Made by a program: the position numbers and the translations under genes. The notes beneath the pieces were generated by a model. That model had not been told where the DNA came from. It worked only from the letters and a program-made list of their open reading frames with translations, and made no database searches. Below are positions 43,902 through 57,474 of a stretch of 64,000 nucleotides of DNA, piece after piece. Source of the DNA: Synechococcus sp. 1G10 (lineage in GTDB: Bacteria; Cyanobacteriota; Cyanobacteriia; PCC-6307; Cyanobiaceae); NCBI RefSeq assembly GCF_002252625.1, contig NZ_NQKW01000001.1, positions 310,001 to 374,000 on the forward strand, in the 5' to 3' direction. Positions within the stretch are counted from its first letter, which is position 1. Every line of letters begins with the position of its first letter.

Positions 43902-45555
43902 CCGCCCCCAGGCTGCTGCTGCTCACCTGGCGGGCGTACTTGCCCAGGACACCCGTGCGGTAGCGGGGCTCGGGTTTCACCCAGGCAGCACGGCGGCGCT
44001 CCAGCTCGGCCGGATCCACGTTCAGCTGAATCAGCAGCTGGTGCGCGTCGACGGTGATGCTGTCGCCCTCCTGCACCAGGGCAATGGTGCCGCCCACGGC
44101 GGCTTCGGGGGCCACATGGCCCACCACCAGCCCGTAGGAGCCGCCACTGAAACGACCATCGGTGATCAGCGCCACCGATTCCCCCAGGCCCTGGCCCACG
44201 ATCGCGGCCGTGGGCGAGAGCATCTCGCGCATCCCGGGTCCGCCGACAGGGCCCTCGTAGCGAACCACCACCACATCACCGGCATGGACCCCACCGGCGA
44301 GGATCGCCTCCAGGGCGCTCTCCTCGCTCTCGAACACCCGGGCCGGACCGGTGATCACCGGGGTCTTGACGCCGCTGATCTTGGCGACAGCCCCCTCTTC
44401 GGCCAGGTTGCCCCTGAGGATCGCCAGGTGCCCTTTGGCATAGAGCGGATTGGAGAGGGGCCGGATCACCTCCTGATCGGCCGGCGGCACGCTGGGGACA
44501 TCCGCAAGCACCTGCTTGAGCGTGAGGCCTTCGATGGTGCGGCAGTCGCCGTGCAGAAGGCCGGCATCAAGCAGCAGCTTCATCACCTGGGGGATGCCAC
44601 CGGCCCGGTGCAGATCCACCGTCACGAAGCGGCCGCTTGGCTTGAGATCGCAGATCACCGGCACCCGCTGCCGGATGGTTTCGAAATCATCGATCGTGAG
44701 CGGCACCTCGGCGGTGCACGCAATCGCCAGCAGGTGCAGCACCGAGTTGGTGGAGCCACCCACCGCCATGATCACGCTGATCGCATTCTCGATCGCCTCA
44801 CGGGTGATCAGATCGCGGGGGCGGATGTTCGCCTCGATGGCCCTCACCAGCACTTCGGCCGAGCGAGCGGCGCTTTCGGCCTTCTCCGGATCCTCGGCCG
44901 CCATGGTGGAACTGTAGGGCAGGCTCAGGCCCATTGCCTCAAAGGCAGAGCTCATCGTGTTGGCGGTGAACATGCCGCCGCAGCTGCCGGCGCCAGGGCA
45001 GGCGTTCTTCTCGATCGCCAGCAACTCCTCCTCATCGATGCGGCCCCCGGAGAACTGACCCACCGCCTCGAAGGCACTCACCACGGTGAGATCGCAGGGG
45101 CCAAGCCGTCCGGGCTTGATCGTGCCGCCGTACACGAAGATCGCCGGGATGTTCATGCGGGCCATGGCGAGCATGGCGCCGGGCATGTTCTTGTCGCAGC
45201 CGCCGATCGCCAGCAGGCCATCCATGCTCTGGGCATTGCAGGCGGTTTCGATCGAATCGGCGATCACCTCCCGAGACACCAGGGAGTACTTCATTCCCTC
45301 AGTGCCCATCGAGATGCCGTCGCTGACGGTGATCGTGCCGAACATCTGGGGCATGGCCCCCGCCAGGCGGGCGGTCTCCTCGGCGCAGCGAGCCAGATCG
45401 TTCAGGCCGATATTGCAAGGGGTGATCGTGCTGTAGCCGTTGGCGATGCCGATGATCGGCTTGTTGAAGTCACCGTCGCCAAAGCCAACCGCCCGCAACA
45501 TGGCCCGGTTGGGAGAACGCTGAACGCCTGCAGTGATGGCGGCGGAACGGAGCAT
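43885..45555 (-). CDS. ilvD: Dihydroxy-acid dehydratase
   Basis: A 556-residue Fe-S enzyme of branched-chain amino acid synthesis. It has [16 protein letters not shown] and [14 protein letters not shown] (cluster cysteines), [14 protein letters not shown] and the C-terminal [21 protein letters not shown]. Start ATG 45555 gives [20 protein letters not shown]. Monocistronic by spacing. Confidence 0.97.
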
Positions 45556-45609
45556 GAACCCTTCAGTGGCACCGCTAGCAACCTACCGAGGCGTGCTGCC
45601 GCCTCTCCT

Positions 45610-45637
45610 CAGGCTTCAGGCTTCAGGATTCAGGCTT
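45610..45637. repeat. Heptanucleotide tandem repeat (4 x CAGGCTT, one variant)
   Basis: Units at 45610, 45617, 45624 (CAGGATT variant) and 45631. The array fills the short spacer between ilvD and the next leftward gene and extends over that gene's last codons. It resembles the short tandemly repeated heptamers known in cyanobacterial genomes. Confidence 0.8.
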
Positions 45638-45923
45638 CGGGGCTGAGGGTCTCCAGCTGACGGCGCACATCTTCGATCGCCCGGTTCAGCTCGTTGACCT
45701 TGTGTTGCAGCTGCCGCTCCAGCAACGGACGCCGCACGCCGTCTTCTCCCTCACGGGAGCCTCCCTGCAGGCGCGAGAGAGTGAGACTGCGCCGCTGACG
45801 CTGGGCCAGGCGGCGGCGCTCGGCTTCAGCAAGCAACCACCAGGCCAGGCCCGCGGCACCGATCACCACCCCGGCGACGGCACTGGCCAGGATGGGACTG
45901 GCGGGGGATCCGCGTTCGGCCAT
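45630..45923 (-). CDS. Small membrane-anchored coiled-coil protein, hypothetical
   Basis: A 97-residue protein: one N-terminal helix (ILASAVAGVVIGAAGLAWWLL) followed by a basic segment (RRRLAQRQRRS) and a predicted coiled coil (LERQLQHKVNELNRAIEDVRRQLETL). No family recognised; the architecture fits a scaffold or cell-division-type accessory protein, but this is only shape-based. It sits between ilvD and the GMC oxidoreductase, 36 nt from the latter, on the same strand. Confidence 0.75.
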   Translation of the reverse strand: MAERGSPASPILASAVAGVVIGAAGLAWWLLAEAERRRLAQRQRRSLTLSRLQGGSREGEDGVRRPLLERQLQHKVNELNRAIEDVRRQLETLSPEA

Positions 45924-45959
45924 GGGTGTCTGGTCCTCCCAACCCCTGATCGGGCAAGC

Positions 45960-47462
45960 CTAGAGCCGCTCCGCCATCCGAAGAGCATTGGCGATCACGG
46001 TGAGGCCTGGCGACACGATCGGGCAGCTGGGGAAGACACTGGCATCGGCAATGGTCAGGTTGACCAGGCCATGGACGCGTCCGTCGCGGTCGACCACTGA
46101 GAGGGCCGGATCGTCGCCCATGCGGCAGGTGCCGCAGGCGTGGCCGATCACCGCCAGGGGCGCCTCGCCACGGGGATAGAAGGGGGCCGGGCGCACCTCG
46201 GGGGTGAGGGGATCGGCGTCCACCGCCTTGAGCACGGAGAGCCAGCGGTAGACGAGCCGGTCGTGGGCCTCGAGGTTGTTGGCCAGATACTGAATGCTCA
46301 GCCGCTCCCCGCGCAGCTCGATGCGGTTATCGGGATCGGGCAGAACCGGACTCATCGCCCACCAGCAGATCGAGCGCACCGCCAGCTGCTCCAGGGCGGC
46401 GTTGGGGAGCAACCGCGTCACCAGAGAGAGCACAGGCGGCGACTCTGCGAACTGGGCGTCCTGCAGCACCCCGCCACCGGTTTCGATATGGCCGAGCGGA
46501 AAGCTGACGTTCTGGTCGCCCCAGACGTAGTCGTTGACCCCGAGGCTGCGGGGGAAGCGGCCGCTGTGGGTCTCGCGGGCCAGCTGCAGGATGGCGGTGA
46601 GCTGGGGTTTCATCAGGTTGCGGCCCACCTGGCCCGAGCCGTTGGCCAGGCCATCGGGGTGGAGCTCGCTGCGGGATCGCAGCAGCAGCGCTGGCGTGTT
46701 GACCGCACCGGCGGCCAGCACCACCTGATCGCCGCGGAACAGCCAGAGCTGGCCATCGATCTCTGCTTCCACTCCCTTCACTTCGCGGCCGCTGGGATCC
46801 ACATGCAGCTGGGTGACCCGGGCGTTGCTGATCAGGCGGGCGCCGGAATGCTCGAGGGCCGGCTGCACCCCGAACAATTCGGCGTCACCGCTGGGATCCT
46901 CCTCAACCTCTGACCAGCTCAGCGGCAGGTCGTAGGGATGGCTGCCCTGGCGCTCCAGCCCTTGGCGCAGGGGCTCGAACAGCGGATCCAGCGGCAGGGG
47001 CTGATGGGGGTAGGGGCCACTGCGAGGGGCCTCCTGCGGGTCGAGGCCGGCTCGGCCATGGACCCGGTAAAGCGCCTCGGCCCGTTCGTACCAGGGGGCG
47101 AGTTCGTCGTAGGTGATCGGCCAGGCGGGGGCCACCCCCTCCTGCAGGGGCAGGCCTTCGAACTCACGCGGCCACATCCGCTCGAGCACCCCACCCCAGA
47201 TCTTGGTGTTACCACCCAGGGCGTAGATGGTCTGGGGGGCGAATGGATCGCCGTCAGGGCCGAACCATGACTCACCGGAGTGGTAACGGTTCTTGCGGAA
47301 CAGATCCACGCTGGCCACATTCTGATCGGCCAGGGCCATGGCCCCTCCTCGCTCCAGCAGCAGCACCGAGCGGCCCTTGGCCGCGAGGGCACCGGCCAGG
47401 CTGCCGCCGCCGGCGCCGGAACCGATCACGATCACATCGTGGTGCTGGTCGTCAAAGATCAT
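45960..47462 (-). CDS. GMC-family FAD-dependent oxidoreductase
   Basis: A 500-residue flavoprotein. The FAD Rossmann motif is VIVIGSGAGGGSLAGALAAKG, followed by LLLERGG and the GMC loop ALGGNTKIWGGVLERMW. The C-terminal GMC domain has HACGTCRMGDDPALSVVD, VHGLVNLTIADASVFPS and SPGLTVIANALRMAE. Where many GMC enzymes have Asn before the late Pro, this one reads VSPGLT. It resembles dehydrogenase-type members (sugar or alcohol donors) rather than oxidases, but the substrate is unknown. No signal peptide is seen. Its ATG overlaps the ctaE stop (ATGA), so it is made together with the terminal oxidase and may feed it electrons. Confidence 0.9.
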   Translation of the reverse strand: MIFDDQHHDVIVIGSGAGGGSLAGALAAKGRSVLLLERGGAMALADQNVASVDLFRKNRYHSGESWFGPDGDPFAPQTIYALGGNTKIWGGVLERMWPREFEGLPLQEGVAPAWPITYDELAPWYERAEALYRVHGRAGLDPQEAPRSGPYPHQPLPLDPLFEPLRQGLERQGSHPYDLPLSWSEVEEDPSGDAELFGVQPALEHSGARLISNARVTQLHVDPSGREVKGVEAEIDGQLWLFRGDQVVLAAGAVNTPALLLRSRSELHPDGLANGSGQVGRNLMKPQLTAILQLARETHSGRFPRSLGVNDYVWGDQNVSFPLGHIETGGGVLQDAQFAESPPVLSLVTRLLPNAALEQLAVRSICWWAMSPVLPDPDNRIELRGERLSIQYLANNLEAHDRLVYRWLSVLKAVDADPLTPEVRPAPFYPRGEAPLAVIGHACGTCRMGDDPALSVVDRDGRVHGLVNLTIADASVFPSCPIVSPGLTVIANALRMAERL

Positions 47463-48061
47463 GACCAGGCGTAGAGGAGAAGAAAGAGCAGCACCCAGAT
47501 CACATCCACGAAGTGCCAGAACAGGGAGGTGGCGATCACCCCCTGCTCACCGGCGGCGTAGTTGGCCGGGCGGAAGGAGCGCTGCAGCATCAGGGCCATC
47601 AGCAGGATGCCGCTGAGCACATGCAGGCCGTGGAAGCCGGTGAGCAGGTAAAAGCAACTGCCAAAACTGCCGCTGGTGATTCCGAAGTCAAGCGAGCGCC
47701 ATTCGATCGCCTGGCCGTAGAGGAACACGGCCCCCATGGCCATGCTCAGCAGCCAGAAGGCACGGAAGCCCCAGATCTGCCCCTTGGAGAGGAAGTGCTC
47801 GGCCAGAGCAACTGTGCCGCTGCTTGAAACCAGCACCACTGTGTACAGCAAGGGGGTGCGCCACTCCAGCCCCTCCACCCCTGGCGGCAGCCATTGCAGG
47901 GCGGAGAGCTTCAGCACCGCATAGCCACTGAAGAACGCCAGGAAGATGACGCTCTCGGAGCAGAGAAAAATGATGAAGCCGGTGAGGCTGTAGTTGGCGT
48001 GCGCCGCTTCGTGACTCTCGGGGGACGGAGCGGCGGCATCGAGGGGAGGGCTGATGGTCAT
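47459..48061 (-). CDS. ctaE: Cytochrome oxidase subunit III (ARTO type)
   Basis: A 200-residue five-helix subunit III. It starts MTISPPLDAAAPSPESHEAAHANYSLTG with FIIFLCSESVIFLAFFSGY, FYLLTGFHGLHVLSGI and a terminal SLFWHFVDVIWVLLFLLLYAWS, all typical. It is 3 nt downstream of ctaD and overlaps the GMC gene. It belongs to the oxidase whose subunit II lacks CuA. Confidence 0.93.
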   Translation of the reverse strand: MTISPPLDAAAPSPESHEAAHANYSLTGFIIFLCSESVIFLAFFSGYAVLKLSALQWLPPGVEGLEWRTPLLYTVVLVSSSGTVALAEHFLSKGQIWGFRAFWLLSMAMGAVFLYGQAIEWRSLDFGITSGSFGSCFYLLTGFHGLHVLSGILLMALMLQRSFRPANYAAGEQGVIATSLFWHFVDVIWVLLFLLLYAWS

Positions 48062-48064
48062 GGT

Positions 48065-49756
48065 TCAGGCCTGCAGAAGGGCGCGCTCGATCTCATCCTG
48101 GTGCTCCACAAGCGGCCGGCCGGTGCCATAGCCGTAGGGACCGCTGATCACCGTGGGCACATGTTCCTCAAAATTCTCAGCGGGCGGCGGTGAGGGCAAC
48201 AGCCACTCCAAGCCAATGGCATTCCAGGGATTGGCAGGGGCCTTGGCGCCACGCACCCAGGAACTGACCAGGTTGAGCAGGAAGGGAATGATCGACACCC
48301 CCAGCAGGAAGGCACCGAGGCTGGCGATCACATTCCAGAAGGCGAACTCCGGGTCATAGGAGGACACCCTGCGCGGCATGCCCATCAGGCCGAGGGGATG
48401 CATCGGAAAGAAATTGAGGCTGGTGCCGATGAAGGTCAGCAGGAAGTGAAGCTTACCCAGGCCTTCGTAGTACATATGGCCGGTGAACTTAGGGAACCAG
48501 TGGTAAATGGCCGCATAGACACCCATGGTTGCAGCGCCATAGATCACGTAGTGGAAATGTCCAACAACGAAATAGGTATTGTTTACATGAATATCGACTG
48601 GCACGGTGGCAAGCATGATGCCTGTCACACCGGCAAAGACGAAGTTGAACAATCCACCTAGGGCGAACAGCATCGCCGTGTTCAGGCGCAACTTGCCTCC
48701 CCACAGCGTTGCCAGCCAGGCGAACACCTTGATGCCGGTGGGCACCGCGATCAACATCGTGGTGACCATGAAGGCATCACGCATCCACTGGGGCACGCCG
48801 CTGGGGAACATGTGGTGCACCCACACGATCAGGCTCAGCCCCACGATCACCAGGGAGGCACCGGCCACGAAGGGATAGCCGAACAGAGGCTTGCGTGCAT
48901 ATACCGGAAACAGCTCCGAGAACACCCCGAACACCGGCAGGATGATCACGTACACCGCTGGATGGGAGTAAAACCAGAAGAAGTGCTGATAAAGCACCGG
49001 ATCACCGCCCCCCTCGGGCCGGTAGAACGAGGTACCCACGACCAGATCGAACAGCAGCATCACCGCACCACCCGTCAGGGCGGGCAGGCCGATCAGCTGA
49101 ATCGTCTGGGCTGAGAAGGCGGTCCAGCAGAAGATGGGCATCCTGGTGAGGGTCATACCGGGAGCGCGCATGCGCAGGATCGTGGTCACGAAGTTGACCG
49201 CGCCCATGATCGAGGAAATGCCAGAAAGAGCCACCGCCAGGATCCAGAGGGCTTCGCCATTGATCAGATGACCCAGTGGATTCTGCAGACTCACCGGCGG
49301 ATACGACCACCAGCCTGAAGAAGCCGGACCGCCAGGCACCAGGAAACTGGCCATCAGAATCACCCCGAACACCGGCACCAGCCAGAATGCGGCGGCATTC
49401 AGCTTGGGGAAGGCCATGTCGGGGGCGCCGATCATGCAGGGGATCAGAAGGTTGTTGAGCCCGTTGAGAACCGGGAAGATGAACAGGAAGAGCATGATCG
49501 TCCCGTGCATCGTGTAGAGCCCGTTGTACACGGTGCGATCGACCAGATCCGCCTCCGGTGTGATCAGTTCACCGCGCATGATCATCGCCAGCAGACCTCC
49601 CACCAGCAGAAAGAACAGTGCGGTGGCGATGTACTGGATGCCGATCACCTTGGCGTCGGTGTTGAAACTGAAAAAGCGCTTCCAGTTGTCCGGAGCACCG
49701 GGCACAGGATGGGGAGCCCGCAGGATGCGCGATTCGACGCCGGCAGTGGAGGTCAT
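48065..49756 (-). CDS. ctaD: Cytochrome oxidase subunit I (ARTO type, class A2)
   Basis: A 563-residue heme-copper oxidase subunit I with 12 helices. Metal ligands are visible: His in LYTMHGTIMLF (low-spin heme), FYSHPAVYVIILP (CuB His and cross-linked Tyr), VHHMF (CuB) and GHFHYVIYGAATMG (high- and low-spin heme). The K-channel lysine is in VPTGIKVFAW. The YSHP motif in place of GHPE places it in the A2 class. ATG 49756 is 4 nt after ctaC. It should reduce oxygen to water and may pump protons. Confidence 0.95.
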   Translation of the reverse strand: MTSTAGVESRILRAPHPVPGAPDNWKRFFSFNTDAKVIGIQYIATALFFLLVGGLLAMIMRGELITPEADLVDRTVYNGLYTMHGTIMLFLFIFPVLNGLNNLLIPCMIGAPDMAFPKLNAAAFWLVPVFGVILMASFLVPGGPASSGWWSYPPVSLQNPLGHLINGEALWILAVALSGISSIMGAVNFVTTILRMRAPGMTLTRMPIFCWTAFSAQTIQLIGLPALTGGAVMLLFDLVVGTSFYRPEGGGDPVLYQHFFWFYSHPAVYVIILPVFGVFSELFPVYARKPLFGYPFVAGASLVIVGLSLIVWVHHMFPSGVPQWMRDAFMVTTMLIAVPTGIKVFAWLATLWGGKLRLNTAMLFALGGLFNFVFAGVTGIMLATVPVDIHVNNTYFVVGHFHYVIYGAATMGVYAAIYHWFPKFTGHMYYEGLGKLHFLLTFIGTSLNFFPMHPLGLMGMPRRVSSYDPEFAFWNVIASLGAFLLGVSIIPFLLNLVSSWVRGAKAPANPWNAIGLEWLLPSPPPAENFEEHVPTVISGPYGYGTGRPLVEHQDEIERALLQA

Positions 49757-49760
49757 GGGA

Positions 49761-50690
49761 TCAGGCGTCGTGGGGAAGGGTGTTGGAGCCGGGCACATTC
49801 ACAAGCGGGGGCGGTGCCGGCTCGATGGTGGCGTAGCCACTGCGGCGTTCGCCGCTGAGCTGCTGGGCGTATTCGCGGGCCGCATCGCTGAGCCCCGGCT
49901 GGAGTGGCAGCCGGGAGGCGCGCCGCAGCCAGTCCTGGTAGGCCTCTTCGCTCTCCACCACCACATCGGCCTGGTTGGCGGCAAACCAGGTGCCGCTGTA
50001 CTCGGAGTCGCGCAGGCGGTAGCGCCCAGGGCGGGTGGCCGTGAGGAACAGGGTGATCGAGCGACCAGGGATCACCTGCTGCTTGAGGCGGAAGGCCGGC
50101 ACATAGAAGCCGTGGATAACGTCTTCGCTCTCCAGTTGCAGGCCGAGGCGACGGTCGAGCGGAAGGTGCAGCTCGGTGGACAAGACCCCGGCCACCGGGT
50201 AGCGGAACTCCCACGACCACTGCCGAGCGATCACCTGCACCTCCCCGCCGGGCAAAGGAGCGGCAGGGGCGGAGTTTGCCTTGGCTGGGCCATGGGCATG
50301 GTCCATGGGGCCGATCAAGCCGATCTCCCTGTTCACCTGGATCGTGTAGGCGGCGATCGCCATCACCAGAACAAGGGGGATCACGGTCCAGACGATCTCG
50401 AGGGTGGTGTTGCCCTCGATCGGCTCCGCATCGCTCATGTCGTACTTCTCAGCCCGGTTGAAGAGCACAACCCAGACCATCACAGAGACCACGCCCACGA
50501 AGACGAAAGTGGCGACGGCAGTCTCGAAGCCGAACAGGCCATCCACCAGAGGGGCAGCCGAGGAGGCCGACACCGGCAACCAACGGGGCACCTGAGCCCC
50601 CATCCAGACACTCAGCAGGGTGAGCAGCACCAACCAGACGGCCAGGCCAATCAGCCGGGGCAGGGGAAAGCGCTGAGGCGTACTGGTCAT
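49761..50690 (-). CDS. ctaC: Cytochrome oxidase subunit II without CuA site (ARTO type)
   Basis: A 309-residue subunit II with two N-terminal helices (about 12-32 and 55-77) and a cupredoxin domain (ARQWSWEFRYP; His193 in VIHGFYVPAF). At the position of the CuA loop C-x-E-x-C-x3-H-x2-M it reads DSEYSGTWFAAN (228-239): both Cys, the His and the Met are replaced, while Glu230 remains. This is the hallmark of the cyanobacterial alternative respiratory terminal oxidase, thought to take electrons from quinol or another donor rather than cytochrome c. A 60-residue polar C-terminal tail follows. ATG 50690 overlaps the DUF2231 gene stop by 4 nt. Confidence 0.93.
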   Translation of the reverse strand: MTSTPQRFPLPRLIGLAVWLVLLTLLSVWMGAQVPRWLPVSASSAAPLVDGLFGFETAVATFVFVGVVSVMVWVVLFNRAEKYDMSDAEPIEGNTTLEIVWTVIPLVLVMAIAAYTIQVNREIGLIGPMDHAHGPAKANSAPAAPLPGGEVQVIARQWSWEFRYPVAGVLSTELHLPLDRRLGLQLESEDVIHGFYVPAFRLKQQVIPGRSITLFLTATRPGRYRLRDSEYSGTWFAANQADVVVESEEAYQDWLRRASRLPLQPGLSDAAREYAQQLSGERRSGYATIEPAPPPLVNVPGSNTLPHDA

Positions 50691-51262
50691 GGCAGGGCCT
50701 CCCGCAGGCTGGCGCCTTCGCCCAGCAGCTGGCTGGCCGTGACGTGCACGCCGAACTCCACACCCAGCTGGGCACCGAGGGTGCCGTGCCAGGCCATCAG
50801 AGCAAACACCAGCAGACCCACCAACAGGTAGCCCCACTGCACCTGGCGGCCCATCTCACGACGCCAGCGGAAGCGCTGGAGTCCACGCCAGAGGGTCATC
50901 AACACGATCGCGAACAGGAGGGCTACGCCCACGGCCCCATGCCAGAGCATGGTGGCTGTGCTGCCCATGCCGAAGCTGCTGGTGACACCGGGGAGCGGAT
51001 CGGCCAGCTGCATCTCCAAGAAACCCGCCGCCACCGTGAAGAAGCTGATCAGGCAGCAGGCCAGGAGGTTGTACCAGCCCACATCGTGAAGGCCGGAGCG
51101 GGTGACCGGCAGGGCCAGGAAGCGGAACAGGCGCCGCTCAAAGGGGAAGAGCGCTCCAGCGATATCGAAGGCGATGGCAATCACGAACAGACCGATCGTG
51201 AGATGCACCAGGTTGGGGTGGATCGGCAGCCGGTAGGGCAGATCGTTGGCTCCAAGCCCCAT
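50687..51262 (-). CDS. DUF2231 membrane protein (second of pair)
   Basis: A 191-residue protein with four to five helices and conserved histidines (LPIHPNLVHLTIG; DVGWYNLLACC; TMLWHGAVG; LMAWHG). DUF2231 proteins often sit beside ARTO genes and may carry heme or assist quinol access; this is not proven. Start is ATG 51262, or GTG 51265, both overlapping the upstream DUF2231 stop. It overlaps ctaC by 4 nt. Confidence 0.85.
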   Translation of the reverse strand: MGLGANDLPYRLPIHPNLVHLTIGLFVIAIAFDIAGALFPFERRLFRFLALPVTRSGLHDVGWYNLLACCLISFFTVAAGFLEMQLADPLPGVTSSFGMGSTATMLWHGAVGVALLFAIVLMTLWRGLQRFRWRREMGRQVQWGYLLVGLLVFALMAWHGTLGAQLGVEFGVHVTASQLLGEGASLREALP

Positions 51263-51759
51263 CACACCAGACCTGCGCGCATCGCCTCCACCACCTTGAC
51301 GGTGTGGAGGCCGTAGACCCAGATCAACTGGTTCCCCAGCACAACCTGCACCACCACCAGGGCACTGAGCAGGCTGCCAGCCCCGAGAAAGGCCAGAGGC
51401 AGCTGCTGGGGATCACGGCTGCGGATCACGTAGCGCCAGGCGGTGAGTACGGAGAGCACTCCGGCCAGCACCCAGCCGAGAGTGCTGTGCAAGTTGAGGA
51501 TGTCGCGGGAGGCGCCATAGGGGTTGGCCAGCCCTGCCTCCACCTGGCCGAAGATGATCGCGATGAAGATCGCCACCGTGGCGAAGAGCAGGTTCCAGAA
51601 GCTCACTTCGTACAGGGAAGGCTTGCCTGCGAGACGGCCGATCAGATCGAAGACGAAGGCGATCAGGGCCATCGCAATCACGAAATGGACCACGATCGGA
51701 TGGATCGTATCGACCCAGGGGAGGTTGCGATCGTTGAGGGGAGGAAGAAGCTCGAACAT
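51262..51759 (-). CDS. DUF2231 membrane protein (first of pair)
   Basis: A 165-residue protein, MFELLPPLND, with four hydrophobic helices. Conserved DUF2231 features are DTIHPIVVHFVIAMALIAFVFDL, a His in ILNLHSTLGWVLAG and a final helix ending VYGLHTVKVVEAMRAGLV. First gene of the overlapping oxidase operon if the small ORF upstream is not counted. ATG 51759 is chosen; the frame is open to 51822 without a better start. Confidence 0.85.
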   Translation of the reverse strand: MFELLPPLNDRNLPWVDTIHPIVVHFVIAMALIAFVFDLIGRLAGKPSLYEVSFWNLLFATVAIFIAIIFGQVEAGLANPYGASRDILNLHSTLGWVLAGVLSVLTAWRYVIRSRDPQQLPLAFLGAGSLLSALVVVQVVLGNQLIWVYGLHTVKVVEAMRAGLV

Positions 51760-51868
51760 GGGTGCACGCCCCTCGTGCCGGTGAATCCAGCTTCGGAGGC
51801 CGCACTCAGCGGGAGTGGCCACGGTCAGGGAATCCGGTTCTGACCCGTCGGATCGGCTCTGGCCTCGC

Positions 51869-52018
51869 TCAGTTCCGGCGGCTGACCAGCCATACGGCCC
51901 CGAGCAGGGCGACGAGCACCAGGCTGATCTCGATCAGACCGCCGCTCCAGATCCACTCCTGGAAGGTGAACTCGGCCAGCAGCGCTGGACTGGGTGCAGG
52001 GGCAGACAGCAGGGGCAC
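51869..52018 (-). CDS. Possible 49-aa single-span membrane protein
   Basis: GTG 52018 to TGA 51869 encodes a 49-residue peptide: a Pro/Ala-rich start (MPLLSAPAPSPALLAEFTF), EWIWSGG, one helix (LIEISLVLVALLGAVWLV) and a basic end SRRN. The length and the positive-inside end suit a small membrane subunit. It is 110 nt upstream of the first DUF2231 gene on the same strand. An AAGG sequence lies just upstream of the GTG. No known psb/pet/ndh small subunit matches it by eye. Confidence 0.45.
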   Translation of the reverse strand: MPLLSAPAPSPALLAEFTFQEWIWSGGLIEISLVLVALLGAVWLVSRRN

Positions 52019-52046
52019 GGACCTTAGGCTCGGGGACGCCCCAGTT

Positions 52047-53861
52047 TCACTCGCCCGCCAGGGCCGCTCCCGCCCGCCGCGGATCGACCGCCCCCAGAGT
52101 TCCCCCGCCGGGCAGGGCCTCCAGCGAGTGGGCTGCCCCCATGGCCGGCGTCAGCCGCCAGCGGTGACCCATCGCCTCCAGCAGCCTGAGGGTGTCAGGG
52201 CTGACGCCCTCCTCCACCGCCAGCTCATCAGGCCAGTGCTGGCTGTGGATCCGGCTGGCAGCCACCGCGGAGGCCAGGTTCAGGCCGTGCTCGAGCCGGT
52301 TGAGCAGCACCTGCAGCACCGTGGTGATGATGCGGCTGCCACCGGGGCTGCCGGTGGCCAGCAACGGGCCACCCTCAGGGGTGAGCACCAGGGTGGGCGC
52401 CATTGAACTCAGTGGTTGCTTGCGCGGCTCGATCGCATTGGCCTTCCCCTGCACCAGACCGAAGGCATTGGCCGCCCCCGGCCGGGCCGTGAAGTCATCC
52501 ATTTCGTTGTTGAGCAGGAAGCCGGCGCCCGGCACACTCACGCCGTTGCCGTAGGGGAAGTTGAGGGTGGTGGTGGTGGCCACCATCGTGCCGTCACGGT
52601 CGATGACTGAGAGATGGGTGGTGTTCAGGTGTTCAGCGATGCGCGCGCCGGACTGGGGATCGAGCTCGCGGGCCGGCCGGTGGCGGCCTGGGCGGATCGT
52701 GCGGCGCAGCTCATCGGCATAGGCCTGGCTCAGCAACCGCTCCAGGGGCATCGCCACGAAGCGAGGATCCCCCAGCCAGCGGTTGCGGTCGCGGAAGGCC
52801 AGGTTCATCGCCTCCGCCATCGGATGCAGGGCGGCGGCGCTGTTGGGCCCCAGGGCCGCCAGATCGAAGCCGTTCAGGATGTTGAGCAGCTGGATCAGGG
52901 TGACCCCGCCGGAGCTGGGCGGGGGCATGGCGATCACGGGATGCCCCCGCCAGGCGCCCACCAGGGGGGGCTGAAGACGGGCCCGGTAGCTGCTCAGATC
53001 CTCGGCGCTGATCAGCCCTCCCCGCCGGCGCATCAACGCCACCAGCTTCTGGGCCACCGGCCCCTGATAGAAGCCCTTGTCTCCCTCGGCGGCGATCTGC
53101 CGCAGGGTGGCGGCCAGCTGGGGCTGACGCAGGCGCTCGCCAGGCCGGTAAGGCTTCCCTCCGGGGCGGAAGAACAGGCGCAGCGACTCAGGATCGGCCC
53201 GCAACAGCGGTGCGGCGGCCTCCAGGGAATCGGCCAGGGCCTTGCTCACCACCACCCCCTCATCCGCCAGACGAATCGAGGGGGCGACCAGGCGGCCCAG
53301 GGGCAGGCGGCCGTAGTTGCGGTGGGCCAGCAGCAGGCCCGCCACCGTGCCGGGCACCCCGGTGCTGAGCAGGCTGCGGGTGGCCTTGTGGCGATCCACC
53401 GCACCGGAGGCATCGAGCAGCAGATCGGGGCCGGCCGCCTGGGGAGCACTCTCCCGGAAGTTGATCGTCACCGCCCGGCCCTTCCCCACCCGCACCTCAT
53501 AGGGATGAAGCGGCCGTCCGCGCCTGAGCCGCTCCGGCTGCCAGAGCACGAGGAAGCCGCCGCCACCCAGGTTTCCCGCCTGGGGATGGGTGACCGCCAG
53601 GGCGAAGGAGCTGGCCACCGCCGCATCGACGGCATTGCCCCCCTGCCGCAGCACATCACGCCCCACCCGGGACGCCTCCAGCTCCTGGCTGGCCACCATC
53701 CCCCCGGCCGACCAGAGCGGCTGGAAGCGCTGACTGGCCTCCTGAAGCACATTGGCCGCAGCCGCCAGGGGCCACAGGCCGAAAGCCGCCAGCGGCAGCA
53801 GGGCCCATCCAACCGCCGGCCGCAGCAGCCTTTTGGCAGGGCGGAGTTCAGGGACCGCCAT
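52047..53861 (-). CDS. ggt: Gamma-glutamyltransferase
   Basis: A 604-residue Ntn hydrolase. A hydrophobic N-terminal segment (about 14-38) suggests export to the periplasm. The large subunit has GGMVASQELEASRVG, GGNAVDAAVASSFALAVTHPQAGNLGGGGFLVL; the autocatalytic nucleophile is Thr414 in HLNTTHLSVIDRDG, followed by ATTTTLNFPYGNGV and SSMAPTLVLTPEGGPLLATGSPGGSRI. It splits glutathione and gamma-glutamyl amides. ATG 53861 is preferred to GTG 53870; either overlaps the upstream oxoprolinase 3' end. Confidence 0.95.
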   Translation of the reverse strand: MAVPELRPAKRLLRPAVGWALLPLAAFGLWPLAAAANVLQEASQRFQPLWSAGGMVASQELEASRVGRDVLRQGGNAVDAAVASSFALAVTHPQAGNLGGGGFLVLWQPERLRRGRPLHPYEVRVGKGRAVTINFRESAPQAAGPDLLLDASGAVDRHKATRSLLSTGVPGTVAGLLLAHRNYGRLPLGRLVAPSIRLADEGVVVSKALADSLEAAAPLLRADPESLRLFFRPGGKPYRPGERLRQPQLAATLRQIAAEGDKGFYQGPVAQKLVALMRRRGGLISAEDLSSYRARLQPPLVGAWRGHPVIAMPPPSSGGVTLIQLLNILNGFDLAALGPNSAAALHPMAEAMNLAFRDRNRWLGDPRFVAMPLERLLSQAYADELRRTIRPGRHRPARELDPQSGARIAEHLNTTHLSVIDRDGTMVATTTTLNFPYGNGVSVPGAGFLLNNEMDDFTARPGAANAFGLVQGKANAIEPRKQPLSSMAPTLVLTPEGGPLLATGSPGGSRIITTVLQVLLNRLEHGLNLASAVAASRIHSQHWPDELAVEEGVSPDTLRLLEAMGHRWRLTPAMGAAHSLEALPGGGTLGAVDPRRAGAALAGE

Positions 53862-56800
53862 AGCCACCACCTCCGGGGGTCTCGATCACGAGGGCCTCGC
53901 CGGCCGCCAGCTCCAGCTCCACAGATCCGCCCAGCTCCAGTTCGCTGCCATCGGCTCGGATCAGCCGGTTGCGGCCCAGCGCCCCAGTGCCACCGCCGGC
54001 CAGCCCGAAGGGAGCCACCTCGCGGGAGCTGGAGAGAATCGCCGCGGTCATCGGCTCAAGGAAGCGGATCCGGCGCATCACCCCGTCACCACCCCGCCAG
54101 CGCCCCGCGCCGCCGCTGCCGCGCCGCAGGCCAAAGGCCTCCAGCCGCACTGGAAAGCGCTCCTCGAGAATTTCCGGGTCGGTGAGGCGGGAGTTGGTCA
54201 TGTGGCTCTGCACCGCTGAAGCCCCTGCAAAACCCTGGCCATCGAGGCCGCGACCGGCGCCGCAGCCGCCGCAGATCGTTTCGTAGTACTGATAGCGCTC
54301 GTTGCCGAAGCTGAAGTTGTTCATGGTGCCCTGGGCAGCGGCCATCACCCCCAGGGCGGCGAAGAGAGCGTTGGCAATCGCCTGCGACGTTTCGACGTTG
54401 CCGGCCACCACCGCGGCCGTCGGGCCCGGATGCAGCAGGCAACCCGGTGGCACCACCAGCTCCAGAGGCCTGAAACAGCCGGCATTGAGGGGAACTGCCT
54501 CCCCCACCAGGCAGCGGAACACGTAGAGCACCACCGCCCGGGTGATCGCCAGGGGGGCGTTGCGGTTGCCGTTGTCCTGGGGGGAGGTGCCCGTGAAATC
54601 GATCACAGCGCGGCGGGCGGGGCGATCGATGCGCACGGCCACCTGGATGCGCAGGCCGCCATCAAGGGGGAGGCTGAAGGCGCCGGGCTCGAGCCGATCG
54701 AACACCCGCCGCACCGCTTCGGCGCCGTTGTCCTGCACGTGGCCCATGAAGGCGGACAGCCGCTGGAGCCCCTCGCGCCGGGCCAGGTCCACCAGCAGCT
54801 GGGCGCCGAGTTGATTGGCGGCCACCTGGGCCTGCAGATCAGCCAGCAGCTGCTCAGGGTTGCGCACGGGATGGGGCCCGGACGCGAGTCGCCGCTGCCA
54901 GTCGGCAGTGAGCAGTACGCCATCCCGCAGCAGGGGCACGTTGTCGAGCAGGAGGCCTTCGTCCGCAAGGCAGCGGCTGAAGGGGGGCATCGAGCCTGGA
55001 GTGATGCCGCCCACATCGGCATGGTGGCCTCGGGAGGCAACGAACCCAGCGTGGCTGGGCAGGAACACCGGGGTGATCACCGTGAGATCGGGGAGGTGGG
55101 TGCCGCCGTTGGCGGGGTCGTTGGAGACGATCGCGTCGCCGGGCTTGAGGGCAGGGCGCTCCCCCCGCCGCACCGCCGAGAGCAGGCTTTCCACGCTGGC
55201 CCCCATCGAGCCGAGATGTACCGGGATATGGGGGGCATTGGCCACCAGTTGCCCCTGGCCATCGAAGAGGGCACAGGAGAAATCAAGGCGCTCGCGGATG
55301 TTCACCGATCGGGCGCTCTGCTGCAGGCGCACGCCCATCTGCTCGGCGATGGCACTGAAGCGGTGGTTGAACAACTCCAGGCTCACGGGATCCAGCGCGG
55401 CCCCCTGCTGCGCTGGTCGGGCTTTCGCCGCCCCATGACTGAGCAGCAGGCAGCCGTCGGGGCAACACTCGGCCCGCCAGCCCGGCGCCAACCAGATGGT
55501 GCCGGTGGTCTCCACCACCAGAGCCGGCCCTTCAAGCCGCTCACCGGGCGTCAGGGCATCGCGGCGGTGCAGCGGAACGGATCGCCAGGCACTACCGCAG
55601 TGGAGTTGGATCAGCCGTTCCTCGACTGCCAGAGAGGCCCGATCAAGGGGAGTTGCTGAGCCGATCTCGGCCGCAACAGACTTCCCTGGAGCCACCACCT
55701 CCACCAGCAGCCACTCCACCATCAGCTCGGCAGCTTCGGGGCAGTGGCCGAAGCGGCGCTCATGGTCGAGCTCGAACTGCTGCCGCAGCAGCCTGGCCTC
55801 CTGCAGCGGCAGGGTGAGCGTCCGTTCACTGGCACCGAGCCGCACACCCACACTCACGTCGGCTCGGACATCAGCACGGACTTCGGCAGCCAGGGCCTGC
55901 CGGCCCCGCTCGTACTGCAATTGGGCCTGCTGCTGGAGCTGCTCCACCAGAGCCTGATCCAGGGGAAGGCGCACCAGCTCCTGCAGCAGCAGTCGCTGGT
56001 CGGCCAGAGCGATGCCATAAGCCGAGAACACCCCGGCCAGGGGATGGAGCAGCACCCGTGTCATGCCCAGCCGCTCAGCCAGGTCACAGGCGTGCTGGCC
56101 GCCAGCTCCACCAAAGCAGATCAGCGCGGCGCCGCGCACATCGTGACCCCGCTGGATCGAAATGCGCCTGATCGCCTCCGCCATCCGCTCGATGGCGATC
56201 GCCAGGGCCCCTTCCGCCAGGGCCTCGGCCGTGGTGGGAACTCCGCTGGCCTGGCCCACCAGCTCCGCCAGCTGCTGGAACCCACGCCGCACCACCGCCG
56301 CATCGAGCCCCTGATCGCGGCCTGGCCCGAAGACCGCCGGGAACGCCTCCGGCTGGAGGCGGCCCAGCAGCAGGTTGGCGTCGGTGATCGTGAGCGGTCC
56401 GCCCAGGCGGTAGCAGGCCGGCCCGGGATCGGCCCCGGCTGAGCTGGGCCCCACCTGCAGACGCTGACCATCGAAGTGCAGCACTGAACCACCACCGGCC
56501 GCCACGGTGTGGATCGGCAGCATCTCCGCCTGCAGGCTGAGGCCGGCGATCTCCGTCTCCTGGCGGCGCTCCCAGCCCGGGGACGGCCCCCCGGCCTCCA
56601 CATGGAAGACATCGGTGGAAGTGCCGCCCATGTCGAAGCCGACGATGGGCATGCTCCCTGCCGCCAGCCGTACCGCCGCCACCATGCCGCCGGCGGGGCC
56701 GGAGAGGATCGTGTCCTTTGCCTTGAGCAGCTCCGGTGCAACCAGGCCGCCGCTCGACTGCATCACCCGCAGGCGGCAGTGGGGTCCGAGCTCGGAGCGC

Positions 56801-57474
56801 AGCTGATCCAGGTAGGCCACCAGGGCCGGTGCAACGGTGGCCTCCACCACAGCCGTCTGCGCCCGGGGCACCAGCCGGGGCCTCCGGCCCACCTGGTGGG
56901 AGAGCACCACCGGCCCAAATCCGAACGGGCGCAGCCACTCGGCCAGCTGCAGTTCATGGCCCGGATGTCGGGCGCTGTGGAGCAGGGCCACCGCGCAGCT
57001 GCTGATGCCGTCGCGGCGGGCGTCGTTGAGGGCCCGCTCCAGGGCTGCATCGAGGAGCAGCGGCGTCAGCTCCGTGCCATCGGCCGCCAGCCGCCCCACC
57101 ACCTCCAGCACCCGCCGGTAGCGCGGAGCCGGCCGCTCGACGTGCAGGGCAAACAGATCGGGCCTGTGCTGGTCACCGATCCAGGCGGCATCGGCAAAGC
57201 CACTGCTGATCAGCAACAGGGTGGGAGCACCCCGGTGCTCCAGCAGGGCATTGGTGGCCACCGTGGTGCCGATCCGCACCTCGCTGACCGCCCCGGGAGG
57301 GAGCGGCTGGCCGGGAGCAAGCCCGAGCAGCTCGCGCATGGCGGCCACCGCCGGGTCCCCGGCCAGCTGCGGCGGCTGCGAGAGCACCTTGCGAACCACC
57401 AGCTCGCCGCCGGGGGCACGGCCCACCAGATCGGTGAAGGTGCCGCCCCGATCAATCGAGAAGCTCCAGCCCAC
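53848..57474 (-). CDS. oplAH: 5-oxoprolinase (ATP-hydrolysing), HyuA-HyuB fusion
   Basis: A 1208-residue hydantoinase/oxoprolinase. The HyuA half (about 1-690) starts MGWSFSIDRGGTFTDLVGRAP and carries TTVATNALLEHRGAP, FDMGGTSTDVFHVEAGG (ATP) and CFGGAGGQHACDLAERLGM. The HyuB half (about 700-1208) has LDPVSLELFNHRFSAIAEQMG, SNDPANGGTHLPDLTVI and GSGGAGRWRGGDGV. It opens 5-oxoproline to glutamate with ATP. Fused single-chain forms are typical of OPLAH; many bacteria split the two halves. It is directly upstream of ggt with overlap, forming a gamma-glutamyl salvage unit. Confidence 0.93.
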   Translation of the reverse strand: MGWSFSIDRGGTFTDLVGRAPGGELVVRKVLSQPPQLAGDPAVAAMRELLGLAPGQPLPPGAVSEVRIGTTVATNALLEHRGAPTLLLISSGFADAAWIGDQHRPDLFALHVERPAPRYRRVLEVVGRLAADGTELTPLLLDAALERALNDARRDGISSCAVALLHSARHPGHELQLAEWLRPFGFGPVVLSHQVGRRPRLVPRAQTAVVEATVAPALVAYLDQLRSELGPHCRLRVMQSSGGLVAPELLKAKDTILSGPAGGMVAAVRLAAGSMPIVGFDMGGTSTDVFHVEAGGPSPGWERRQETEIAGLSLQAEMLPIHTVAAGGGSVLHFDGQRLQVGPSSAGADPGPACYRLGGPLTITDANLLLGRLQPEAFPAVFGPGRDQGLDAAVVRRGFQQLAELVGQASGVPTTAEALAEGALAIAIERMAEAIRRISIQRGHDVRGAALICFGGAGGQHACDLAERLGMTRVLLHPLAGVFSAYGIALADQRLLLQELVRLPLDQALVEQLQQQAQLQYERGRQALAAEVRADVRADVSVGVRLGASERTLTLPLQEARLLRQQFELDHERRFGHCPEAAELMVEWLLVEVVAPGKSVAAEIGSATPLDRASLAVEERLIQLHCGSAWRSVPLHRRDALTPGERLEGPALVVETTGTIWLAPGWRAECCPDGCLLLSHGAAKARPAQQGAALDPVSLELFNHRFSAIAEQMGVRLQQSARSVNIRERLDFSCALFDGQGQLVANAPHIPVHLGSMGASVESLLSAVRRGERPALKPGDAIVSNDPANGGTHLPDLTVITPVFLPSHAGFVASRGHHADVGGITPGSMPPFSRCLADEGLLLDNVPLLRDGVLLTADWQRRLASGPHPVRNPEQLLADLQAQVAANQLGAQLLVDLARREGLQRLSAFMGHVQDNGAEAVRRVFDRLEPGAFSLPLDGGLRIQVAVRIDRPARRAVIDFTGTSPQDNGNRNAPLAITRAVVLYVFRCLVGEAVPLNAGCFRPLELVVPPGCLLHPGPTAAVVAGNVETSQAIANALFAALGVMAAAQGTMNNFSFGNERYQYYETICGGCGAGRGLDGQGFAGASAVQSHMTNSRLTDPEILEERFPVRLEAFGLRRGSGGAGRWRGGDGVMRRIRFLEPMTAAILSSSREVAPFGLAGGGTGALGRNRLIRADGSELELGGSVELELAAGEALVIETPGGGGYGGP

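Follow-up and report, generated by a model that had tools for sequence, protein, structure and literature searches.

The ARTO operon of Synechococcus sp. 1G10 ends in a gene for a GMC-fold FAD protein, GMC1, which accompanies this oxidase throughout the family Cyanobiaceae and belongs to a clade that has lost the usual catalytic His/Asn pair. The explanation we favour, which we give close to an even chance, is that GMC1 is a non-canonical cytoplasmic flavoprotein dedicated to ARTO, with the DUF2231 pair at the start of the operon as the likely point of electron entry. In the window, by which we mean the whole 64,000-nucleotide stretch analyzed, the six genes form one operon on the minus strand in the order DUF2231-A, DUF2231-B, ctaC, ctaD, ctaE and GMC1. 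DUF2231-A (51262..51759) encodes a membrane protein of 165 aa with four long helices, and DUF2231-B (50687..51265) encodes 192 aa from a GTG at 51265 or 191 aa from an ATG at 51262, giving an overlap of 4 nt or 1 nt, respectively. The third gene, ctaC2 (49761..50690), overlaps DUF2231-B by 4 nt and encodes ARTO subunit II without CuA ligands; ctaD2 (48065..49756; subunit I, with the motif YSHPAVY) follows after a gap of 4 nt, and ctaE2 (47459..48061; subunit III) after a gap of 3 nt. GMC1 (45960..47462; 500 aa) overlaps ctaE by 4 nt, its ATG sitting within the ctaE stop as ATGA.

The order of the six genes and the spacing of -4, -4, +4, +3 and -4 nt given in an earlier sequence-only reading were confirmed by the coordinates and by Pfam. 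All six genes scored above the cut-off: 123.4 and 122.9 bits for the two DUF2231 genes, 45.9 (COX2_TM), 37.5 (COX2), 512.5 (COX1) and 111.6 (COX3) for the oxidase genes, and 72.5 (GMC_oxred_C) and 34.6 (GMC_oxred_N) for GMC1. The region 45300-52100 contained no promoter-like site and three terminator-like sites, neither count being above that in shuffled sequence, and a search of the DUF2231-A/B junction for repeats found none.

Conservation of the operon was analyzed in 201 genomes of the host family (at most the best seven candidates per genome were scored) and in genomes outside it. To be accepted, an ARTO ctaC had to reach 185 bits in the family (the next row scored 163) and 163 bits outside, and a GMC row 284 and 420 bits, respectively, with all thresholds placed at gaps within the score lists. 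GMC1 is present in 91/91 family genomes with an ARTO ctaC, and the GMC start lies 2.27-2.42 kb past ctaC on the same strand in 90 of the 94 family GMC rows; the remaining four lie at assembly breaks. Two family genomes have the GMC gene without a ctaC row: in G103, ctaD-ctaE adjoin GMC1, and in G105, GMC1 reaches the contig end. The state of ARTO and of GMC1 agrees in 54/55 genomes of eight genera having both states, which were chosen by eye from the family search results. Because GMC1 and ARTO share an operon, their joint loss may reflect one deletion rather than a functional need.

Compared across cyanobacteria, the gene order around the CuA-less ctaC recurs both in the family and beyond it, including in Trichodesmium and Crocosphaera. 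Wherever all six genes share a strand, their order is identical (88/88 family loci, 17/17 outside loci and 62/62 named loci), and order and spacing together are far beyond chance. The exact overlap of 4 nt between ctaE and GMC occurs in 19/91 family loci and a spacing of -4 to +30 in 76/91, so spacing in the family is tight as a rule, without the exact overlap being fixed. The 19 loci outside it, which include one of GMC3, are more loosely spaced (median 107 nt). The named loci are 80 kept from 393 relatives, one of the two scan patterns being NNxEAHDRL, which favours H400 of GMC1; they overlap partly with the other genome set, and the counts are not additive. ARTO-operon genes lie on the same strand as GMC1 within the fetched stretch in 72/80 named loci, and the genomes of the other eight carry an ARTO-like ctaC elsewhere (8/8). 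The linkage is kept in other families even where GMC1 identity to that of the window falls to 46-51%. Outside the family, 21 genomes have a GMC row, of which two (G317 and G384) are GMC3, leaving 19 with GMC1; it is absent from 38/57 ARTO genomes there, a count based on the best five candidates per genome, so that a few may have been missed. ARTO can thus work without GMC1. The tie of the GMC flavoprotein to this oxidase, proposed in the sequence-only reading, is supported, and the condition named there as refuting it, an occurrence beside ARTO in this strain alone, clearly does not apply. ARTO does not require GMC1 everywhere.

The oxidase core lacks two known routes for electrons. In a gap-free alignment made by eye against a CuA-carrying subunit II from this genome, the CuA ligands C, C, H and M correspond to D228, S232, F236 and N239 in the window subunit II. 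Among 195 ARTO subunit II sequences picked by similarity to it, both bridging cysteines are missing in all 195; position 228 is D in 194 and N in one, position 232 is S in 195/195, and position 236 is F in 190, H in three and Y in two. The sequence-only reading was therefore right that this subunit cannot hold CuA. Cytochrome bo3 is also without CuA, and its subunit I in E. coli, CyoB, has the same haem/CuB histidines as ARTO: H265, H314, H315, H400 and H402 of ARTO subunit I correspond to CyoB H284, H333, H334, H419 and H421 (57/57), and the ligands H314, H315, H400 and H402 occur in 193/193 ARTO sequences. In contrast, the CyoB quinol-site residues R71, D75, H98 and Q101 are all absent from each of these 193 subunits I. 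Arg71 and Asp75 are given as bo3 quinol-site residues in one source (PMC7497249), and the site is named in another, where residue 101 is printed as Glu101 (PMC10256718).

In a review, ARTO is classed with the bo3-type oxidases and plastoquinol is given as its electron source (PMC6616624). As described there, the Anabaena operon alr2729-alr2730-coxB3-coxA3-coxC3 (type-1 ARTO, CtaII, Cox3/Qox) also encodes a three-subunit haem-copper oxidase with a CuA-less subunit II, and two genes precede coxB as they do here, a likeness by position; GMC1, the sixth and last gene here, does not appear in that operon as described. Work on Synechocystis, Trichodesmium and Prochlorococcus ties ARTO to Fe(III) reduction and to adaptation to low iron, and the same literature gives its location as the cytoplasmic membrane (PMC10119275, PMC7676907, PMC5776111); the iron role in Trichodesmium has also been doubted in print (PMC9723768).

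The two DUF2231 proteins each carry four invariant histidines, H20, H25, H91 and H152 in DUF2231-A and H16, H21, H109 and H174 in DUF2231-B. These columns show zero substitutions in 188 and 190 sequences, respectively, with gaps in 0-3 rows per column. The positive-inside rule, applied to loop charge, predicts that the histidines lie away from the positively charged side, on the periplasmic side. Outside the family, 57/57 ARTO genomes have two or more copies of DUF2231; among genomes without an ARTO row, it occurs in 14 of the class, with a single copy in 11 of these, and in seven others of the phylum. Because the oxidase core lacks both CuA and bo3-type quinol-site residues, electrons probably enter ARTO via DUF2231-A/B, and we regard this pair as the leading candidate for the electron-entry module. 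Its involvement, raised only in passing by the sequence-only reading, deserves more weight than it was given.

The fold of DUF2231-A gives no clear indication of haem, its matches being generic helical bundles. Foldseek gave a cytochrome bd qOR-2 chain (9r2g) as the best match of the model (E 0.11, TMq 0.56). VIA-align gave a designed bundle (Z 14.3), oxidase subunit III chains (Z 13.2 and 12.8) and the designed di-haem protein 4D2 (Z 11.8 and 11.6), where for helical bundles a Z below about 13 may reflect a common arrangement only. A sequence search of the PDB returned no DUF2231 relative, the single match being at chance level (E 0.09).

GMC1 has the GMC_oxred_N and GMC_oxred_C domains, and its predicted model matches GMC enzymes. 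The best matches are the alpha subunit of Burkholderia FAD glucose dehydrogenase (6a2u, 8grj) and the large subunit of Gluconobacter fructose dehydrogenase (7w2j, 8jej), with E values of 2e-31 and 2e-23, respectively, by sequence and of 4e-42 to 4e-38 for the four structures by Foldseek. The FAD fingerprint glycines G14, G16 and G19 are invariant, and no export signal is evident in the window GMC1, consistent with a cytoplasmic location. The best NCBIfam match is the mycofactocin dehydrogenase MftG (TIGR03970), another GMC protein, which may connect a redox carrier with respiration; GMC1 scores 74 bits where 387 are needed and so falls outside that family.

The GMC catalytic pair corresponds to positions 441 (His) and 484 (Asn) in GMC1 numbering. 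These positions align with the His and Asn of 6a2u and lie 43 residues apart, as do H1147 and N1190 in the titles of fructose dehydrogenase variants, which we take to be the catalytic residues of that enzyme. Unlike these dehydrogenases, GMC1 lacks the Asn in nearly all sequences and the His in most. In the first GMC1 set, limited to loci with a GMC above 420 bits, Asn484 occurs in 0/110 readable sequences and His441 in 14/110; in the named set, with the frameshifted L172 omitted, each occurs in 3/79 (76/79 being without the Asn). No sequence in either set has both (0/110 and 0/79). The close paralogues retain both residues in 33/33 cases (15/15 and 18/18), and GMC1 forms a distinct clade with support of 100/100 in a tree of 25 of the 111 GMC1 sequences and 33 paralogue rows; from a second tree, six of 61 rows were left out (L009, L010, L036, L037, L039 and L060). 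Clade-specific invariant residues are G331, F338, S346 and H400, the last found in 111/111 GMC1 sequences. The idea that H400 is a clean swap for the lost catalytic His is weakened, as a His is found there in 3/18 canonical paralogues too.

Since the clade has lost the pair used for GMC oxidation, classical sugar or alcohol oxidation by GMC1 is not supported by the residues. This bears on the proposal in the sequence-only reading of a direct sugar/alcohol-to-oxygen module, in which GMC1 is a working dehydrogenase feeding ARTO, and we think this rather unlikely. GMC1 also has no 3Fe-4S stretch, the CCGNNNC segment of 6a2u and fructose dehydrogenase, presumably the cluster ligands, lying opposite a Cys-free segment in the window protein, and no multihaem cytochrome c subunit is found among the six operon genes. 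Neither PF08450, the gluconolactonase family, nor PF13618 (Gluconate_2-dh3 type, which may not cover the small subunits of fructose and glucose dehydrogenases) has a match in the window genome. Nevertheless, the closest solved relatives are sugar dehydrogenases, and the residues of the window GMC1 argue against a firm rejection, as it keeps His441, with Ser at position 484. The same His and Ser are found in L002, a distantly related GMC encoded in this genome (67 bits), so Ser484 need not mean lost activity and the changed second position is not unique to GMC1, which shifts the balance slightly from the favoured explanation towards this proposal; another GMC, L003, retains His and Asn. The neighbourhood also lends this proposal something. 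GMC2, which has an intact pair, and an MGH1-like/GH63 glycoside hydrolase are found nearby in 12/20 longer family loci, some of which also carry DoxX, glyoxalase, gluconolactonase-family and SDR genes. GMC2 occurs in at least 52/201 family genomes, all 52 with ARTO and GMC1, and lies within 6 kb of GMC1 in 43 of them. However, the catalytic pair is kept by GMC2 and GMC3 and not by GMC1, and the window genome lacks both GMC2 and PF08450; the gene set was therefore rejected as direct support for the proposal. A GMC oxidoreductase of marine Synechococcus lineages has been filed under carbohydrate metabolism (PMC4734447), and a Synechococcus GMC gene adjoins glycogen genes (PMC11889915); the passages concerned do not mention a terminal oxidase. 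No literature joining a GMC protein with ARTO was found among the matches listed.

The loss of the pair could instead mean that GMC1 is dead for substrate oxidation and is an ARTO subunit on the cytoplasmic side with a part in structure, assembly or regulation (by flavin sensing). Its dedicated linkage to ARTO, and the invariance of G14, G16, G19 and many other columns despite the missing pair, would fit such a role, which we consider unlikely while still taking it seriously; conservation of the FAD site suggests that redox use is retained, the four clade-specific residues point to a particular active site or interface, and many ARTO genomes outside the family do without GMC1. That same absence suits another arrangement, in which ARTO is a plain plastoquinol oxidase, as published (PMC6616624), and GMC1 and DUF2231 are independently linked to plastoquinone and only co-regulated with it. 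Another quinol site would be compatible with the missing bo3 residues, although the bo3 site, the one site tested, is absent; the constant company of at least two DUF2231 copies and the fixed gene order also weigh against this arrangement, and we judge it improbable. Finally, common descent or transfer could have kept the genes together, with GMC1 in an unrelated role, and most absences could be explained as single block deletions. We hold this to be very improbable, as the linkage persists across families at low GMC1 identity, and as an ARTO-like ctaC is present in all eight named genomes in which GMC1 was not seen beside ARTO.

The explanation we favour, with GMC1 as a dedicated ARTO partner, would work as follows. 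GMC1 would be a cytoplasmic FAD protein, kin to the GMC sugar dehydrogenases and deprived of their His/Asn pair, that is held under strong constraint by its service to ARTO. Most likely, it would accept electrons from a donor in the cytoplasm using non-classical chemistry, or its flavin would act as a relay, and plastoquinone or the DUF2231 pair would carry the electrons on to the membrane part of the ARTO system. The four periplasmic-side histidines of each DUF2231 protein could hold haem b or another metal. A bolder form, possible yet doubtful, gives ARTO a third kind of electron entry, distinct from both CuA and the quinol site of bo3, with DUF2231-A/B as an entry or exchange module that has haem b or metal on its histidines and is possibly also where Fe(III) is reduced, and with GMC1 as the dedicated cytoplasmic donor in a wide range of cyanobacteria.

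In summary, many cyanobacteria make ARTO from the same operon as a GMC flavoprotein without the usual catalytic pair. The electron donor of ARTO is unsettled, and GMC1 and the DUF2231 pair provide three candidate genes for answering this question; both DUF2231 genes are found with ARTO in every one of the outside genomes checked. If GMC1 still transfers electrons, its clade, which lacks the catalytic pair typical of the superfamily, would represent a new use of the fold.

Gene-by-gene inspection bore out the sequence-only reading of six genes on the minus strand at 45960-51759, ordered DUF2231-A, DUF2231-B, ctaC, ctaD, ctaE and GMC1, and the gene families of this operon of the alternative terminal oxidase (ARTO) were supported by Pfam above the cut-offs. 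DUF2231-A and DUF2231-B overlap by 4 nt (GTG start) or 1 nt (ATG start), DUF2231-B and ctaC by 4 nt, and ctaE and GMC1 by 4 nt; gaps of 4 nt and 3 nt separate ctaC from ctaD and ctaD from ctaE, all on the minus strand. Just upstream on the same strand (52047-57474) lie mutually overlapping genes for a gamma-glutamyltranspeptidase and a hydantoinase/5-oxoprolinase-type protein, possibly a gamma-glutamyl breakdown pair. A small gene after GMC1 (45630-45923) resembles the ssl2009 thylakoid family below the cut-off (31 versus 58 bits).

Both GMC1 and ARTO ctaC were searched in 201 genomes of the GTDB family Cyanobiaceae, with cut-offs set at gaps in the score lists. ARTO ctaC was found in 91 genomes and GMC1 in 93, and all 91 ctaC genomes carry both. 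On the same contig and strand as ctaC, 90 of the 94 GMC rows start 2271-2416 nt after it, a distance close to the length of ctaD plus ctaE. The remaining four are assembly breaks: ctaD and ctaE adjoin GMC1 in L132 and L076 (loci of genomes G103 and G138), the locus of G163 is divided between L136 and L134, and GMC1 of G105 reaches the end of a 3738-base contig. In eight genera that were chosen by eye as holding both states, presence or absence of GMC1 matches that of ARTO in 54 of 55 genomes, all but G105. Of 91 family loci, 76 have ctaE and GMC1 spaced from -4 to +30 nt, 19 of them at exactly -4, and 15 have a spacing of more than 30 nt; the gene order is the same in all 88 family loci with six genes on one strand.

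The comparison of gene order around CuA-less ctaC across cyanobacteria showed that the proposed linkage to GMC1 recurs in many strains, inside and outside the family. Among 291 genomes drawn from the phylum, with at most five GMC candidates per genome scored, ARTO occurred in 57 genomes outside the family, and a GMC match of at least 420 bits in 21, all within the ARTO set. Two of these (G317 and G384) carry the paralogue GMC3, leaving 19 outside genomes with GMC1. It lies within 10 kb of ARTO on the same strand in 18 of the 19; in the genome G377, the locus is split over two contigs, one ending in ctaC and the other beginning with ctaD, ctaE and GMC1. With the same limit of five candidates, GMC1 is missing from 38 of the 57. 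A scan of named genomes kept the best 80 of 393 relatives, all 80 from cyanobacteria, including Trichodesmium, Crocosphaera watsonii WH 8501, Pseudanabaena, Moorena, Okeania and Planktothrix. Among these best 80 loci, 61 have an intact GMC1 together with the other five genes on the same strand, and 71 (72 counting L172) have one or more of the five. In the locus L172, from an uncultured cyanobacterium MAG, the five genes accompany a GMC1 that appears frameshifted (GMC pieces from about 4660 and 5014), perhaps through a sequencing error. The order is fixed in all 62 loci of the best 80 with six genes, L172 included. The genomes of the other eight loci, some of which are cut by contig ends, carry ARTO-like ctaC elsewhere, one as fragments only. 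In a subunit I tree of 55 of 61 rows, most GMC1-less loci fall in one 12-row clade from a single family (f7), with further absences in L040 and L041; members of a second, divergent ARTO clade have GMC3 or no GMC. On the basis of the outside-family counts, the best-80 loci and this tree, type-1 ARTO is widely partnered by GMC1, although one large lineage and a scatter of others lack it.

By sequence, the closest solved relatives of GMC1 are FAD glucose dehydrogenase alpha and the fructose dehydrogenase large subunit, and the predicted model (mean pLDDT 90.2) also best matches FAD glucose/fructose dehydrogenases. Unlike these enzymes, the window GMC1 does not have the CCGNNNC cysteine stretch, which we take to be their 3Fe-4S site. 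No NCBIfam family scored above its cut-off for GMC1 (best MftG, 74 versus 387 bits), and PF13618 had no match anywhere in the 3.34-Mb window genome. The N-terminal sequence starts straight at the FAD-binding strand with no evident export signal, and the RR pairs in the first 35 residues of 9 of 110 orthologues can be chance occurrences.

Alignment to 6a2u placed the GMC catalytic pair at 441 and 484 of the window GMC1, 43 residues apart, as are H1147 and N1190, named in structure titles of fructose dehydrogenase variants. In the 110 GMC1 sequences that could be read, residue 484 is G (77), S (28) or P (5) and in no case N or H; His occupies position 441 in 14, including the window's, and Y, N, S, F, G or others occupy it in the rest. 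The 79 named GMC1 sequences have N484 in three and H441 in three, never together. Both residues are kept by 33 of 33 paralogues (12 GMC2, 3 GMC3 and 18 further cyanobacterial). For two remote GMC proteins encoded in the window genome, alignment gave His and Asn in L003 and His and Ser in L002 (C59:31204-31863 and surroundings), so Ser at the second position is known in another GMC type and the His-Ser state of the window is not unique. A 58-row tree split 25 GMC1 off from the whole set of 33 close paralogues (support 100/100). The FAD-binding glycines are invariant in GMC1, as are E398, H400 and R402 of an E-A-H400-D-R segment at a helix start in the predicted model, with A399 and D401 nearly so; H400 occurs in 111 of 111 GMC1 versus 3 of 33 other GMC proteins. 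The changes at 441 and 484, the clade separation, the invariant segment and the FAD glycines argue that GMC1 forms a clade of flavoproteins under constraint that lack the classical catalytic pair.

The direct sugar/alcohol-to-oxygen module proposed earlier, with GMC1 as its dehydrogenase, was not supported. An MGH1-like/GH63 glycoside hydrolase and GMC2 occur near GMC1 in 12 of 20 longer family loci, directly downstream in 11 and about 12 kb to the other side in the locus L052; the hydrolase and GMC2, whose catalytic pair is intact, follow the ARTO operon at L047:9884-14302, L051:9302-14360, L059:10373-14831 and other loci. Genes for DoxX, glyoxalase, gluconolactonase-family (SGL) and SDR proteins accompany part of the 12 (families named from one representative each). 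GMC2 occurs in at least 52 of the 201 family genomes, all 52 with ARTO and GMC1, and lies less than 6 kb from GMC1 in 43. In three loci of the second ARTO type (L022, L023 and L042), the canonical GMC3 is nearby with DoxX, SGL, SDR and partly glyoxalase. Available parts of published accounts file a marine Synechococcus GMC oxidoreductase under carbohydrate metabolism (PMC4734447) and describe an S. elongatus GMC gene by glycogen-breakdown genes, up at subjective night (PMC11889915); those parts mention no oxidase. It is therefore plausible that sugars are oxidised close to ARTO, though by GMC2 or GMC3 and outside the window strain, since genome searches found neither GMC2 nor an SGL match there.

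The claim that subunit II cannot hold CuA held up: in a by-eye alignment to the genome's own CuA-bearing subunit, the ligands C, C, H and M are replaced by D228, S232, F236 and N239. Across 195 ARTO subunits II, D228 is D in 194, S232 is S in 195, and F236 is F in 190 and H in 3. The Met position (239) is still Met in 96 of the 195 and Asn in 98. Subunit I retains the histidines for haem and CuB, with YSHPAVY versus WGHPEVY of E. coli CyoB. The available part of a review classes ARTO as bo3-type and plastoquinol-fed (PMC6616624). However, R71, D75, H98 and Q101 of the CyoB quinol site correspond in ARTO to V/I/L/F, L/F/M, V/F/I/L and G/A/S/V, and none of 193 ARTO subunits I keeps any of the four residues of this single reference. 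The bo3 site is described in the available text of PMC10256718, which prints Glu101 where the CyoB sequence has Q101, and partly in that of PMC7497249. As judged from sequence, electrons are unlikely to enter by either classical route, CuA or a bo3-type quinol site; ARTO may have a quinol site of another kind.

At least two DUF2231 genes occur in all 57 ARTO genomes outside the family, not always by ctaC (none there in the loci L039 and L042). DUF2231 without an ARTO row was found in 14 genomes of the class (11 single-copy, one a weak match; 3 two-copy) and, as one copy, in 7 further phylum genomes. The genomes G236, G256 and G304 have two copies and no ARTO ctaC row, perhaps representing a system that has diverged or has a different partner. 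Among 20 close relatives searched, 14 have DUF2231, each in exactly two copies. Four histidines each in DUF2231-A (188 sequences) and DUF2231-B (190) show zero substitutions; gaps affect 0-3 rows of each column. The model of DUF2231-A (mean pLDDT 86.2) shows four long helices, mean loop charges of 58 sequences predict loops 1-2 and 3-4 inside, and the DUF2231-B topology was taken from hydropathy alone. In both proteins, all four histidines would therefore lie on or close to the outer face, the side where CuA would sit. We infer that they may bind haem or metal, for or against which fold searches of DUF2231-A do not decide. In the available part of PMC6616624, the Anabaena operon is alr2729-alr2730-coxB3-coxA3-coxC3, so a published operon already includes two additional genes ahead of coxB; no description of the invariant four-His pattern was found in the available portions of the literature.

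Among the matches listed from the open-access literature, we found no main text joining a GMC protein with ARTO, and no description of a dedicated non-canonical GMC1 or of CuA loss, bo3-site loss and a constant four-His pair in combination. Available parts of PMC10119275, PMC7676907 and PMC5776111 report impaired Fe(III) reduction in Synechocystis ARTO mutants and raised ARTO transcripts in iron-poor Trichodesmium; iron links are doubted in the available part of PMC9723768.

The component families of the operon are already known, and its GMC1-bearing form is a variant of ARTO. We favour a route in which electrons would enter ARTO through the DUF2231 pair, and GMC1, where present, would be a dedicated cytoplasmic flavoprotein feeding the ARTO system.
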